Positions 31,436-37,726 of a DNA stretch of 64,000 nucleotides are shown here, piece after piece. The DNA is taken from positions 6,634,001 to 6,698,000 of the forward strand of contig CP110630.1 of the NCBI GenBank assembly GCA_026210745.1, in the 5' to 3' direction. Both the position numbers and the translations under genes were made by a program. A model generated the notes under the pieces. That model saw only the letters and a list, made by a program, of their open reading frames with translations, did not search any database and was not told the origin of the DNA. The stretch's first letter is position 1; every line of letters starts with the position of its first letter. This DNA is from Exobasidium rhododendri (taxonomy: Eukaryota; Basidiomycota; Exobasidiomycetes; Exobasidiales; Exobasidiaceae).

Positions 31436-33329
31436 ATGATCATTGCCGACCAAAAAGATAATGGTGGAGGATCTGCTATTATAGAGGCCTACTCGATAGA
31501 CGATCCATGGACCTCTTCGTCCTCTATATCGCAGCAGAGGTCGGCTGCGACGACATCGAGTCGACCACTGACGTGGGCGGCAGGCAGCGATCGGACTAGC
31601 AGCAGACTTCAGTACCAGGCTTCGGATGCGACAGAGGAAGATACAGCAGGTGCTAGGCTGCCAGACATATACGAAAAGACATGGGAGCTGTGCAGAGCGG
31701 CGGAGCAGGGCAATGACGTCGATATCTCTCTTGGCCAACTCGGCAAGGTGGTGCGATGTGCTCAGGCTATAGGAGCGGCTGATGTTGAGCAGGTGAGTCA
31801 ATTCCCCGACGTAAATCGTTCAGTCAGTCATGCACCCTCTCGCTCTCGTCTGATTCTTTTCCCGCAAATCTTTACAGATCATAAACATGACGTGTGCCGC
31901 TCACTCGTCCCACTGTAATAAGCAGGACTTTTCCCTAGCTCTTCTCTTAATTGCCCAAATTCAGTCAAGACAGACTCCCAGCACTCAAGTCGCAAATCAG
32001 ATACTAAGTTCCGGCATTGATATACCTGAACCGCTACTGGACCTTGACAAACTCCACGCATCAACACTCAAGACAAATACTCAACGTCACTACGCTACTG
32101 TCTCCAGCCCTTCCTCTACTGATCCTTGGGACGCTCCAGCGAAAGATCCGCCTTATACGAGACCAGGCTTGCCTACTTCAACGTCAGCATTCACAACATC
32201 AGCCCTGCGTGGATGGGGCAACGACGAGAGCGAAGGCGAGATAGCCAGCGGCACCAAGTCACCCCTCTCTGCGCCAGTCTACGTCAATCCAAACCCGACG
32301 TCGGTACATTTGCTACCAGACTTGGGAGGTTATCTGTTCTTTCGCCATGTTCTCTACCTCGTCAAGACACCGCTCTCATCCGGCGTGAAGAGAAGATATA
32401 GCGACTTTGTCAGTCTGCATGAATATCTCGTCACTCGATACCCATTCCGACTTGTTCCACCTCTTCCTCCTAAAAGACTCGCCTTACCACATATGAATAG
32501 GACACAGGCCGTCGGATCAGGACAACAAGACATCTTCTTAGAGCAGAGAAGATTGGCACTCGCACGCTACACTCGCAACATCATCAGTCATCCAGTCTTA
32601 CGAAAGGACGGCATTATAGTGTCCTTTTTCAGCACGAACGTAAGCAATGGAAGCAGTAATAGCACGGAAGAGAACGCCAGTTCGTGGAAACACCCTGGTC
32701 TGAGCGACAACATCGTAGAAGAAGGCTTAGACGAGAGCTGGAAGCTAAGTGAAGCTGAGCAGATAAATGTACCAGTCGATATGGAAGACAAACTAGCACT
32801 GACGAAGAAGATGGTAGGGGTGATTGTGGACCGGTGGAATAATACCGTGGCCGTCTTTGAGCGTCAAGTCCGTCGAATGGAAGCGACATCAGCTGAGTCT
32901 ACTCGTTTGTCACTATCCCTCTCTTCTTTGATGGAGGTGGAGACACAGACGTACCAAGCTTCCCATCTAAGTAATACGTTTGGATTGGCCACGAATCTCT
33001 TGATCTCCAACAGTCAAGATTATTCTGATCTATCTACTGCCCGATTTCATACGCTACAGAACACTCTTGACGGACTCAAGAACTCTCGTGATGTGTGGCT
33101 CTCGTTGAAGGATCTCTTCAAACGGTATGAGAAGTTTGGAAGTGATCCGATTCGTGAATTATTGAATCGAATTGAAATCAATCGAAAGAAGTGGAAAAGC
33201 ACCATTGAAGAGAAAAAGGTGCAATGGAAGGAAAATTGCACACGACTGAAAGAAGAAGTAGAATATATTTCCCATCGTTTGACTTTTCGTTTTGACTGGC
33301 GCGCGCCTCGATCTTGGCCCTGGATTTAG
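31436..33329 (+). pseudogene. MVP1: MVP1 sorting nexin, 5' part, interrupted by a transposon
   Basis: Exons 31436-31792 and 31878-33264 encode the first 581 residues of an Mvp1/SNX8-type sorting nexin, which retrieves cargo from endosomes. A low-complexity N-terminus is followed by a helical segment (TWELCRAAEQGNDVDI). The PX domain shows FFRHVLYLVKTPLSSGVKRRYSDF and PFRLVPPLPPKR. A BAR-type coiled region then runs VPVDMEDKLALTKKM to KWKENCTRLKEEVE. At that Glu the frame enters foreign sequence and reads 21 unrelated residues before TAG. The missing last 70 residues, beginning LDQKLIQRFERR, lie 4.25 kb downstream. The truncated product would lack the end of the BAR domain, so the allele is probably non-functional or altered. 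No other disabling change is visible. Confidence 0.88.
33256..33264 (+). repeat. Left boundary direct repeat AAGTAGAAT
   Basis: This nonamer lies at the end of the intact MVP1 reading frame. It matches the right boundary copy at 8 of 9 positions (AAGTCGAAT). It is read as the footprint of recombinase-mediated insertion rather than a staggered-cut duplication, because the central base differs. Confidence 0.65.
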
Positions 33330-33368
33330 ACTTTGAAATCACGAAGATTCTCGTGTTCTCGTGACTTC

Positions 33369-33396
33369 CAAAATCACGAAGATCTTCGTGATTTTG
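33369..33396. repeat. 28-bp perfect palindrome near the left end of the element
   Basis: Each half-site reads CAAAATCACGAAGA and the halves abut without a spacer. A partial copy (ATCACGAAGATTCTCGTG) lies about 30 bp to the left. It may be a recombinase or regulator binding site. The 14-mer following it (GATTTTGCAAATTT) recurs as a direct repeat at 37449 near the right end. Confidence 0.85.
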
Positions 33397-33523
33397 CAAA
33401 TTTTTATTTTTTGACTGGTTGTGCGCGCGTTGAACCCCTTTTTTAGATTGGGCTTTTCCCCCCTACAGAAGATCTCATCTCACCCCCCCCACCACCACCC
33501 TGGCATTGGTATACCATAATACT

Positions 33524-34432
33524 ATGCCTTTCAGACCTAAGAGACTTGACACAGATGCTGCTAGGAAGAGGAGGGAAAGGGTAGAGGTGCAGAGCCGCAA
33601 AATTGCCCATCATCATGAGCATCCACACGCCTACATTGATCTGGAAGACAGGACTAACATTACCATCAGTGCTGGCCATAAGACCATTATGCAGCGCTTC
33701 TCTCCTACCTCAACAAGGTCAGCTGCCCGTCTCAACGAGATGTACAGGGAGGGATGGGAGCTGAAGGAGTCTCTTTACAAGTCAGCGCTGGAGAATTTAG
33801 ATGATCCTGATCGTCACGGAGCACTGGTGGTTCATTTGGGGATATGGTACAATTTTGGTCGGCAGATAGGTTGGACACGGGAACACATCAGATGCAAGCC
33901 TGCTTCAGACAAGATGCTTGACTGGATTCATTCATTCTTTATGTCATTTGTCATCATCTTGGACTCCCTACTTGCAGAAGACTTCAGAGAGGAACTGGAC
34001 ACTCGGGAAGAAGGTTTTGAATGGATGGAATCTCTCTTCCCCGCTGGTGATTGTAGTCTTCTACATCCATGGTATGCACTGGCTGCCGTCATACAAGGCT
34101 TCTCGACAGAGAGTCATAGAGACAGCAGGGATTCAGATCCAACTATCCTCATCAATTTTGGGTGTAAGGTGGTCATAGAGGTGGAAGGGTCGGCCGTATG
34201 TCTCCACCCGGGAGATGTCCTCTTCTTCAGAGCTAATATGGAACACAAGGTCAGACCAACGGATGGAACTTCAGAAGAAGACATGGCAAGGAGATATGCA
34301 GTAAGTCTGTCAATGAGACGGCTGATAGTGCTGAAAAAACAGCTCCCTTCCATGGAAGTCCGAGATGTAGAAGGTGCTGGATCCTCAACAAGGATACCCC
34401 GTGTAAGAAGCAAGAAAGCTCATGTACCATAA
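33524..34432 (+). CDS. 2-oxoglutarate/Fe(II) dioxygenase, TET/JBP-like, carried by the element
   Basis: 302 residues and intronless. The double-stranded beta-helix core is visible in the C-terminal half: ESHRDSRDSDPTILINFG supplies the iron ligands His198 and Asp200, HPGDVLFFRANMEHKV supplies the distal His241, and the Arg256/257 pair in MARRYAVSL fits the 2-oxoglutarate-binding Arg. The HRDSRD form with the GDVLFFR strand resembles fungal TET/JBP enzymes that oxidise 5-methylpyrimidines in DNA and are known to travel with fungal transposons. The N-terminus is basic (RPKRLDTDAARKRRER), suitable for nucleic-acid or nuclear targeting. The ATG is the first in frame, just after a C-run. The substrate is inferred from resemblance, not shown. 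It is convergent with the recombinase gene inside one element. Confidence 0.75.
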   Translation: MPFRPKRLDTDAARKRRERVEVQSRKIAHHHEHPHAYIDLEDRTNITISAGHKTIMQRFSPTSTRSAARLNEMYREGWELKESLYKSALENLDDPDRHGALVVHLGIWYNFGRQIGWTREHIRCKPASDKMLDWIHSFFMSFVIILDSLLAEDFREELDTREEGFEWMESLFPAGDCSLLHPWYALAAVIQGFSTESHRDSRDSDPTILINFGCKVVIEVEGSAVCLHPGDVLFFRANMEHKVRPTDGTSEEDMARRYAVSLSMRRLIVLKKQLPSMEVRDVEGAGSSTRIPRVRSKKAHVP

Positions 34433-35128
34433 TTAGACCAATAGACACAATTTAGACCACCCCAAAGGATGTTCAACGGTGTGAGAAAAAAATTTCAAAA
34501 AAATCCTTACAGGCATCCGAATGGATGAAATGAATATTTTTCTGCCACACACTTTTTTGAAAAAAATCTCTTACAGGCATCCTAATTGTAAACACTTATT
34601 GTGAGCCACTGAGCCATGCTAGAGACATGTTTGATATCATTTTAGAAAGTTCAGAGGTAGCATATTTTGTGGTTTGAAGCGTTTCAAGAGAAAAAGGTAG
34701 GTGTCTTGTACACAGTCTGTTGAACATTTGCGTTTTTTTTTTTTTCAAAATCCTTACACGCAAGGACAATCTAGAGCCTGACGGTGACTTGCTCAGACAT
34801 GCTAGAGACATGGTTAAGGACACTATCAAGAGATCAGAAGGAGCATATTCTATGGTCTTAATATTGTGTCAATTGCATGATACAAATTCATCTCATAATC
34901 TGTCAAAGAAGTGTTGCTTCAAGAAAATTAGGGCATACGTGAGCAAATATTATTGCTTAGTTAGAGCCATGTAAAATAGGGAATGGGAGCCAAATGCTTG
35001 CATCTCAAGGTAGGACTACGCTTGATGATGTTTTGGGAAGTTCATAAGGAGCATATTATGTGGGTTAAACAGTTTGTCAATTACATGTCATGTCACTGCT
35101 CAGTTGTACGTTGGAAGATACAGATAAT
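34433..35128. repeat. AT-rich spacer with degenerate direct repeats inside the element
   Basis: The spacer between the two element genes has no ORF. It contains CTTACAGGCATCC at 34506 and 34570, CATGCTAGAGACATG at 34615 and 34798, and three related AGCATATT segments near 34659, 34842 and 35050. This suggests about three decayed units of 180-210 bp. As the common 3' region of two convergent genes it may hold both terminators. Confidence 0.6.
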
Positions 35129-37120
35129 TCAGCCTTTTTGCACTACTCGTATATCTTTTTCTTCAGCCTTTATTGCATCAATGTATCTACGCAATGTCAA
35201 GCCAGGACCACCATATGCCTCATAGAATGCCTTTAGATCCTTATTACGCTTGAGATACCCATCATAGATCTTCTTGCGTAGACTGTACACTTGAGCATTT
35301 CCCCCTTTGTCCTTCTTGCGCATAGCGGGGGTCCAACGGCACAAAGCCAGAAGGTTCTGACTTGCATTGCCCAATTCCCATTGCTTAACAACCTCCTCTA
35401 CTGTCTTTACAGATGGTATTCTCAGTGGCAGCGGCCTGCCAGGAGCTATGTGCGGCGTCCCACTTGCCAGAGCAGAAGCAGCGTTGGCACCAATAGCAAC
35501 TGCTGCAGAGGTGCCGGCAAGGTGTTCCAGTTGACTGTTGACGCTGTTGACTACACTGGGTGTTGCTGCTGTGTTTGCGGTGCCAGCCTGTGCCTGCACT
35601 CTCTGTGAACCCTGCAACAGTGCTTCTACAAGGCTGACGTTGGTCTGCTGCATTATACTGAGTTGTTTCTCGAGCTTTCCAAGGGCGTACTGGAAAGACT
35701 CTATCATGCGGTCCTGTCCTGACATTTGTGCACCTGCAAAGTAGCTACCTCGGACGTTGTCTCCACCTGGATCCTCCATATCTCCATGATACTCTTCTTG
35801 CGTAGCAACCTCTTCTAAGAGGTAGTGAGCCAACATGTTGGTACGCTCCCCTTTAGACCAGCCACCCCACCACAGGGCACGCGTAATGGACTGCCTCTGT
35901 TCTCCATACAGGTGTGCGTGTAATACCGCGTCTTGTGCTCCGCCGCGTCGGAAACAGTGAGACGTAAATTTGCCCTGCTGATTCTTCAGCATACTGTTGA
36001 TATTCTCTATCTGACCCAACATTAAATTGATCTGTGCTGCTTCCATCCTTGTGCCAGTCTGCAGACGGCCCACCTTCTTGTCTGGTGCAGGAAAGATGTG
36101 ATCGGTTGGCCTTGGCTCATGTCCGCAAACAAGTTTCCAGTAAGCATGCCACCGTTGATATGATGAGACAGCATCTACCAATGGCCGTCCAGGCAGGAAG
36201 TAGAGCTGGTATACGTTGGCTTTGTTCAGTTCATACTGATTTGTTTTGCGGAATGCAATTGTCACTTCCAGATAGGGATTGTTTCCCGGAGAAGAGAATT
36301 TGATTGTTGAATGTATGTGACGCCATAGCATTGAGCAGATCTCATCACAACGTGCCCAAAGCCTGTAAGCCAGGATCATGTAGAAATGCATGAACTCTAA
36401 TTGTGTACGCTCACTTGTGATGAGATGTGGTGTTGCGTCAAAGGCAAGTAGCTTTGTCTTGATGTCCTTTAGGATGACGGACAGATACTGATAAAGCATT
36501 GGTAGAGAGCTTTTGCTTGCAACCAGAGAGCGCTTCACTTCACGCATCTTGCTTCTGAATAGGTTCAGATACCTCTTACTGAAGACAGGATTGCCCGTCC
36601 ATTCTCCTTCTGTGGTCTTGTGCCAGCCAGTTTGCGGAGCACTATCACAGTTGTGTACAGTAAGGAAGTGCCATTTGAGCGCTGCGTGCATACTTTGCAG
36701 TGTGCTTGAGTTGGCATCGGCCAGTCTCACACGCTCTTGTAACCAGGCGCGGCAGAGCCTTTCACTGTGCTCACCAAGCATGTCTAGGCCGTCTTTAAAT
36801 GTACAAGAGCTGCCTAATGTTGCAATCCATTTCCTGAAGCGTACAATATTCTGCTTGTATGATTTAATTGTTCCACTCGACAACAAATGATCTTGAACGT
36901 ACTGATCACCAAATGCATCATCCCATTCATCTGCAATCTCTGCGTTGGGCATTGCTTCTGTTGTATTATTGATCTCTGCTGACTCAATGTTGCCAACGGT
37001 CTCTTTTGTGCTAGACGGTGCAACATCATCTTCCATATCAATGACCATTCCCAGCTGCAGATTAGCTTCTGCCAAGAAGTGCTCAGCGGCACGAGTAATC
37101 CTTCCTCTATGATTGGACAT
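35129..37120 (-). CDS. Crypton-type tyrosine recombinase with Gcr1-like C-terminal domain
   Basis: 663 residues and intronless. An N-terminal SAM-like core-binding region (SSGTIKSYKQNIVRFRKWI) precedes the catalytic domain. The active-site set is visible: Arg257 in AYRLWARCDEICSMLW, His388 and Arg391 in SHCFRRGGAQD, a Trp cluster in ALWWGGWS, and the nucleophile candidate Tyr433 in MLAHYLLEE. After a coiled segment (FQYALGKLEKQLSIMQQTN) and a low-complexity linker comes a C-terminal region of about 85 residues (VVKQWELGN, LCRWTPAMRKKD, YSLRKKIYDGYLKRN) that looks like the Gcr1_C DNA-binding domain found in fungal Cryptons. It would excise and integrate the element through a circular intermediate. 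All catalytic residues are intact, so the element may be active. Confidence 0.85.
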   Translation of the reverse strand: MSNHRGRITRAAEHFLAEANLQLGMVIDMEDDVAPSSTKETVGNIESAEINNTTEAMPNAEIADEWDDAFGDQYVQDHLLSSGTIKSYKQNIVRFRKWIATLGSSCTFKDGLDMLGEHSERLCRAWLQERVRLADANSSTLQSMHAALKWHFLTVHNCDSAPQTGWHKTTEGEWTGNPVFSKRYLNLFRSKMREVKRSLVASKSSLPMLYQYLSVILKDIKTKLLAFDATPHLITSERTQLEFMHFYMILAYRLWARCDEICSMLWRHIHSTIKFSSPGNNPYLEVTIAFRKTNQYELNKANVYQLYFLPGRPLVDAVSSYQRWHAYWKLVCGHEPRPTDHIFPAPDKKVGRLQTGTRMEAAQINLMLGQIENINSMLKNQQGKFTSHCFRRGGAQDAVLHAHLYGEQRQSITRALWWGGWSKGERTNMLAHYLLEEVATQEEYHGDMEDPGGDNVRGSYFAGAQMSGQDRMIESFQYALGKLEKQLSIMQQTNVSLVEALLQGSQRVQAQAGTANTAATPSVVNSVNSQLEHLAGTSAAVAIGANAASALASGTPHIAPGRPLPLRIPSVKTVEEVVKQWELGNASQNLLALCRWTPAMRKKDKGGNAQVYSLRKKIYDGYLKRNKDLKAFYEAYGGPGLTLRRYIDAIKAEEKDIRVVQKG

Positions 37121-37236
37121 GTTCTGGTGTGACGCTTCAGCTGATTGCGTTGATTTCCCTGCCTTCTACCAGCTATGGTCTTGCTTATTATTGTGATTTG
37201 TGAGACGGTGGAGTTCCTCAGGGCGCACAAAGTCAG

Positions 37237-37483
37237 GTCAATCCAGTCAAGTAGTGAAATGAGACGGGTCAATCCAGTTTCTGCATTAAAAGTCAATCCT
37301 GGAGGCATATGCAGCATATTTTTTGGCCTGCTACGCAGGCATTTTGGGAAATAAGCACATATGCCCTGTTGGATTGACTTTGCATTTTGAAGTGGCAAAC
37401 ATCTCCCAAACACTCTGACGCGTTCAACATGGCCCTTTTGGCAGGGAAGATTTTGCAAATTTGCGGGCTCGGCTCGGATTGAC
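37237..37483. repeat. Clustered GTCAATCC octamers and nested inverted repeat at right end
   Basis: GTCAATCC occurs three times on the plus strand (37237, 37268, 37292) and twice inverted (37371, 37476). Between them, GGCATATG at 37304 pairs with CATATGCC at 37358 around an inner hairpin (GCCTGC-TAC-GCAGGC, 37326-37340). The cluster lies upstream of the recombinase start and next to the element end. It is a candidate recombination or autoregulatory site. Confidence 0.7.
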
Positions 37484-37505
37484 TCACGCGTCAATTGCAT
37501 CGGAT

Positions 37506-37514
37506 AAGTCGAAT
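37506..37514 (+). repeat. Right boundary direct repeat AAGTCGAAT
   Basis: This is the right copy of the boundary nonamer. Immediately after GAA the MVP1 frame resumes (TTG GAT CAA), so the host reading phase is preserved when the 4250-bp unit between the repeats is removed. Confidence 0.65.
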
Positions 37515-37726
37515 TGGATCAAAAATTAATTCAGAGATTTGAAAGGAGGAACAAACGAGTAAGAGTGGCTCTTTGGCATGAAGTGACTCGATTACAAGTG
37601 TTGAAGAATCTGATTCTAGAGGACTGGACCGTTTTTGCTCGTAGTGAAGCAGTCAACTTAGCAGCAACAAAGCAAGCCGCTGAAGAACTGGTGGTCGCTT
37701 TGAATGGACTGACAGTACCAAATTAG
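37514..37726 (+). pseudogene. MVP1: MVP1 sorting nexin, 3' part, separated by the insertion
   Basis: Seventy codons continue the BAR-domain end of the interrupted sorting nexin: LDQKLIQRFERRNKRVRVAL, WHEVTRLQ, then a helix to LNGLTVPN and TAG. The ...E-x-D-Q then R-R then W-E-V pattern is the one expected at the Mvp1/SNX8 C-terminus directly after KEEVE. The fragment has no stop or frameshift and no start codon or promoter of its own. Its intact state implies a recent insertion or ongoing excision. It is convergent with BRO1, 87 bp away. Confidence 0.82.

Follow-up and report, generated by a model that had tools for sequence, protein, structure and literature searches.

Several fungal DNA transposons are known to carry a TET/JBP dioxygenase of their own. 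The main text of Kojima (2025; PMC12730594) describes 11 transposon lineages with TET/JBP enzymes from three fungal groups; these lineages, found in Pucciniomycetes, Agaricomycetes and Pezizomycetes, use DDD/E transposases or a Helitron enzyme. The terms ‘Crypton’, ‘tyrosine recombinase’, ‘Ustilagin’, ‘Exobasid’ and ‘MULE’ do not occur in that main text, and ‘MuDR’ appears in one introductory passage only, which deals with other enzymes. For CryptonF elements, the relevant sections of Kojima and Jurka (2011; PMC3212892) name two companions, a C48 peptidase and a Mariner in fusion, and propose an extrachromosomal circle as the Crypton transposition form; the word ‘dioxygenase’ does not occur in that paper. 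The element considered here lies in a 64-kb stretch of the genome of Exobasidium rhododendri, a fungus parasitic on plants (C1:6634001-6698000, the window; the genome comprises 17.6 Mb in 4 contigs). An earlier reading of the window from its letters (the original prediction) had proposed a Crypton-like element with its own TET/JBP-like dioxygenase, and had noted that fungal enzymes of this type ride on DNA transposons, as PMC12730594 confirms. The element is probably a recently active, CryptonF-like Crypton with a TET/JBP-like DNA dioxygenase as its second gene. No Crypton with such a dioxygenase was found in the open literature; most subscription papers lay outside the scope of that search, and an earlier mention is possible.

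Structure and copies of the element

The element occupies 33256..37509 of the window (4,254 bp, no strand assigned), with bounds set by comparison of its copies. The original prediction had placed the unit at 33256..37514; its left end coincides with that of the copies, while its right end lies five bases too far. AAGT stands at the left end (33256..33259) and at the right end (37506..37509), and the same four bases open and close all seven copies, with different flanks at each site. Within these bounds two convergent genes run as uninterrupted, intronless frames where they had been predicted.

Used as a genome query, the recombinase gave eight matches at seven loci, two of the matches being halves of one frame-shifted gene (C1:6537050-6539037). 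The dioxygenase found eight places, seven of them beside the seven recombinase loci. Both genes are therefore present in every copy found in this genome (7/7), in the same order and orientation and between the same ends; since the insertion sites are unrelated, the pairing goes beyond chance, and the expectation that the two genes travel together holds. Two unrelated nested insertions brought together by chance are vanishingly improbable and were ruled out as an explanation by these paired copies with shared ends. Five copies, including that of the window, are identical to the letter, and one (L022) lacks a single base, in the recombinase. The seventh (L021) carries another dioxygenase cassette. 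The dioxygenase thus lies inside complete bounds shared by multiple copies, as in other TET-carrying DNA transposons.

The element has no terminal inverted repeats: its terminal 30 bases match in inverted orientation at 7/30 positions only, and none of the 25 inverted pairs listed (of 31) lies at the element ends. The combination of short terminal direct repeats (4–6 bp) with a lack of terminal inverted repeats is that of CryptonF.

In the window the element interrupts a host Mvp1/Snx8 sorting nexin gene with PX and BAR matches, whose 5′ part lies at 31887..33255 (+) and whose severed 3′ part lies at 37510..37726 (+). When the flanks are fused over one AAGT, a single open frame of 529 amino acids results, which ends at the stop codon of the 3′ part; one AAGT was therefore the target's own, or was exactly restored. 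This Mvp1/Snx8-like gene is the genome's only full-length match, its PX part being matched at 34% by another locus. The left flanks appear to be A/G-rich at the seven sites, a sample too small for a target consensus beyond AAGT.

The tyrosine recombinase

The recombinase (663 amino acids; 35129..37120, −) has a catalytic domain at about residues 203–452 (35765..36514, −), and its structure model shows a Cre-like fold. The Arg/His/Arg/Tyr set that had been predicted is intact (R257, H388, R391, Y433), in the R..H-x-x-R..Y arrangement of CryptonF recombinases, and K292 and W418 complete the catalytic residues. By sequence, either singly or as a profile, no PDB chain was matched. The term ‘Crypton-like’ is upheld by the predicted fold and catalytic residues together with the short terminal repeats and the lack of terminal inverted repeats. 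A GCR1_C-like C-terminal region (residues 569–626; 35243..35416, −) scores 15.4 bits, under the Pfam cut-off of 23; at E ≤ 0.1 it was matched in 4 of 18 recombinase family members, the window's included. Of the 26 recombinase matches from outside the window, 17 entered the family alignment (A2), and P0023-P0031 were left out. Ceraceosorus, Jaminaea and Parajaminaea also have relatives of the recombinase. A Starship-like captain (DUF3435) was considered and rejected, the match being present in just one of the 18 family members (E 0.0026) and the element measuring just 4.25 kb.

The dioxygenase and its predicted fold

The dioxygenase (302 amino acids from the ATG; 33524..34432, +) has the HRDSRD...H...R pattern of a 2-oxoglutarate/Fe(II) enzyme. 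The predicted metal and 2-oxoglutarate ligands were found as H198-x-D200, H241 and R257, numbered from the Met and so two below the alignment numbering, with D203 in addition. The HxD...H...R ligands are present in the window copy and in four of the five other aligned members, L021 having HxN instead; the alignment (A1) leaves out P0003 and P0032, which represent the dioxygenases of L021 and L023 as annotated. Against PDB chains, the family profile gave weak matches to Naegleria TET (E 0.004 and 0.005) and one to an irrelevant chain (E 0.32). In structural alignment of the predicted model, the top six rows are all NgTET1 or CcTET, which exceed the best AlkB row by 1.6–2.9 Z units over longer alignments. 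The low-confidence model thus shows a double-stranded beta-helix whose nearest solved proteins are TETs, and no dioxygenase family acting outside nucleic acids came out as the best match, as the original prediction had required of its reading.

Several observations weigh against this assignment. The structure model is of low confidence, Foldseek alone gave no TET among the 50 rows listed, and the Pfam model PF12851 (Tet_JBP) stayed under its curated cut-off (19.8 versus 34.9 bits). The proposed profile check against TET/JBP succeeded in part, weakly through the PDB profile and not through Pfam. PF12851 is weak in the other family members as well, and its cut-off concerns what a search can detect, not the biology of the protein. 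On the predicted fold and ligands, the protein is best described as TET/JBP-like; 5-methylcytosine would be its substrate, and its action would presumably benefit the element.

Within reach of the searches, neither the genome nor the protein database yielded a host-like homologue from which the gene might derive. The sole other homologue found in the genome sits inside another transposon (L023), which agrees with the expectation that the dioxygenase would have no independent host-like relatives. The protein database held three further relatives, in a search that requires shared 5-residue words. No relatives were confirmed in viral contigs or in bacterial or archaeal genomes.

A swapped dioxygenase cassette

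The copy L021 (C1:988387-992503) combines the backbone of the window element with a different dioxygenase. On both sides of the dioxygenase its backbone is 93–100% identical to that of the window per 100-bp block, except for the block with the left switch point (88%), and on the right side identity is 98.1% over 2,760 bp. The dioxygenase gene falls to 52–72% per block and encodes an enzyme 53% identical to that of the window; most of the ~300 bp behind it is absent. Synonymous divergence (dS) is 0.06 for the recombinase pair and 1.8, near saturation, for the dioxygenase pair, in which non-synonymous divergence (dN) is 0.41 and the ratio 0.22 (NG86) or 0.30 (LWL85). The L021 enzyme is nearer to two database relatives (62–63%) than to that of the window. 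A near-identical backbone with a divergent dioxygenase implies a replacement of one version by the other through recombination, with the rest of the element left as it was. As judged from this comparison, the dioxygenase segment is shown to be an exchangeable cassette, and the substitution ratios indicate that both versions have evolved under constraint. The picture is complicated by L021, where an Asn occupies the position of the metal-binding Asp. The left end of L021, with part of the flank, is tandemly repeated with a 100-bp period near C1:992403-992503.

Other dioxygenase-bearing transposons

The eighth dioxygenase place, L023, encodes an enzyme 26% identical in alignment to that of the Crypton and convergent with a 706-residue SWIM/ZSWIM-type transposase-like gene. 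A perfect 9-bp repeat and imperfect ~24-bp inverted repeats delimit this pair (L023:3952-7571). At 10 bp with at most one mismatch no inverted repeat is detected, and at 14 bp with at most three mismatches there is one; nothing comparable turned up in 2,000 first-order resamples. Duplications of 9 bp are characteristic of MULEs, and L023:3952-7571 is a MULE-like transposon whose dioxygenase is distantly related to that of the Crypton. A perfect inverted repeat of 17 bp precedes this dioxygenase, much as a palindrome precedes that of the Crypton. No such dioxygenase was found near a related transposase at C2:1569888.

A Harbinger-type element is present in three copies of ~4.79 kb that are at least 99.96% alike (L046, L047 and L048; 1921-6710), with AGT on both sides. 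It encodes a DDE_Tnp_4 transposase, a Myb/SANT-like protein and a dioxygenase-like protein of 421 residues, which shows an HRDTSD...H...R pattern and matches 2OG-FeII_Oxy_3 weakly; in one of the three copies, that on C3, the dioxygenase frame is split in two. No kinship with the Crypton enzyme family was detectable, nor any PDB match by sequence, and the protein is not claimed as TET/JBP. Over 239 bp, part of the Crypton intergenic DNA (34500..34737) shares 87% identity with Harbinger-type intergenic DNA; this part is largely absent from L021. The similarity suggests that the two kinds of element have exchanged DNA. It may plausibly be, and is put forward tentatively, that the dioxygenase is a tradable anti-silencing module, held by tyrosine recombinase, MULE-like and (as a different dioxygenase) Harbinger-type elements and swapped by recombination into otherwise unchanged elements.

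A deletion derivative of the Harbinger-type element (L049:4688-6836) has lost the transposase region and keeps most of the dioxygenase gene, with an internal stop. Relatives of the Harbinger-type dioxygenase (36–37%) also occur near four contig ends, less than 8 kb away (C1:3760, C1:7119159, C2:7433 and C3:7425, the last being L050), and may form a subtelomeric family; L050 is CpG-depleted (0.43).

Methylation context and proposed mechanism

The CpG observed/expected ratio of the element is 0.54, and TpG/CpA is raised (1.35 versus 1.13); 111 overlapping host stretches of element size, all taken from this 64-kb window, range from 0.74 to 1.02. The left leader (268 bp, 14 CpGs) has a ratio of 1.10 and is the only undepleted one of the five element parts measured. 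The backbones of the two element versions, counted without the swapped stretch 33480-34747, differ at 58 positions, 51 by transitions; 25 of the 58 fall at CpG, which makes up 219 of 2,985 positions (p 2e-14). This pattern is the usual scar of 5-methylcytosine, and suggests that the element has been methylated. One open frame of the genome (2,287 residues; C1:5102492-5109355) combines a DNA methylase domain with SNF2 and helicase domains, and we take it to be DNMT5-like; a second C5 methyltransferase locus is fragmented. Only 216 bp separate the stop codon of the DNMT5-like frame from the end of an element copy located behind it (L018, C1:5098022-5102275); this was noticed post hoc and is possibly due to chance.

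In the mechanism proposed, the Cre-like recombinase would excise the element by recombination between its AAGT ends, giving a putative circular intermediate, which would then insert at a single AAGT elsewhere, in keeping with the copies, their ends and the empty site. The host would place 5-methylcytosine on the CpGs of the element through the DNMT5-like and the second C5 methyltransferase. The dioxygenase, given its predicted fold and active-site residues, would oxidise this 5-methylcytosine, so that the promoters of the element are kept open or its DNA is free of the mark at transposition. Its role would thus be one of anti-silencing.

The left leader upstream of the dioxygenase (33256..33523) has a repeated palindromic motif at 33336-33399. 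A 21-bp motif (CAGAGGTAGCATATTTTGTGG) occurs in four diverged copies, three in the intergenic region between both stop codons (34433..35128), at 34652, 34835 and 35043, and one before the recombinase gene, at 37306; these are possible binding sites.

Alternative explanations

Instead of erasing a mark the dioxygenase could write one, forming a hypermodified base, as JBP and CMD1 do, by which the element or its circular intermediate would be labelled or protected. TET/JBP enzymes span several chemistries, and such roles are left open for the transposon-borne ones in the text of PMC12730594; moreover, the scars of CpG decay indicate that the element has not been kept free of 5-methylcytosine throughout its history. 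The nearest solved structures are 5-methylcytosine oxidases, however, and the open reading frames listed for the element show no sign of a third gene, a glycosyltransferase for instance (no profile search was made), which leaves a writing role rather unlikely. The protein might also belong to another group of 2-oxoglutarate oxygenases (AlkB-like or cupin-like), with alkylated bases, RNA or protein as its substrate. This is quite improbable given the lead of NgTET1 and CcTET over AlkB in the structural alignment and a sequence profile that, among catalytic matches, reaches TET only.

That the dioxygenase is a passenger, which entered by recombination and is tolerated by an autonomous Crypton without rendering it any service, would fit the loss of a metal ligand in L021, and the intergenic DNA shared with the Harbinger-type element indicates that exchange between elements does occur. 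It is nevertheless unlikely: the frame is open in all seven copies, the dN/dS ratio between the two versions is 0.22–0.30 at a dS above 1, and a second version, 26% identical, has been kept in another transposon class. An anti-silencing dioxygenase on a Crypton is preferred to each of these readings.

Significance and comparison with known systems

If correct, this extends the TET-carrying transposons to tyrosine recombinase elements and to Exobasidium, and suggests that an enzyme of demethylation type is useful to mobile DNA whatever its mode of transposition. If the module is tradable, methylation defence and demethylating counter-defence could be observed evolving as a cassette. The anti-silencing role of transposon TETs has long been assumed, and here it becomes directly testable: identical copies exist, one backbone occurs with two versions of the dioxygenase, of which one has lost a metal ligand, and the 17.6-Mb host genome is compact and has two methyltransferase loci.

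Like the transposons described in the main text of PMC12730594, the element is a DNA transposon with its own TET/JBP-like dioxygenase, which presumably counters methylation-based silencing, and unrelated transposons of one genome again carry related enzymes. Unlike the lineages given there, it is mobilised by a tyrosine recombinase and its host is Exobasidium. It resembles CryptonF, as characterised in PMC3212892, in lacking terminal inverted repeats and in the short direct repeats at its ends (4 or 6 bp), and possibly in a GCR1_C-like C-terminus of the recombinase, for which the match here is sub-threshold. The recombinase shares with Cre the predicted fold and the catalytic residues of the tyrosine recombinase core, but is a fungal protein with an extra C-terminal region, and its element has copies at dispersed AAGT sites. 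The dioxygenase shares with NgTET1 and CcTET the predicted fold, the HxD...H...R set and the position of a base-contacting Asp, but is just 11–14% identical to them in structural alignment and is encoded inside a Crypton.
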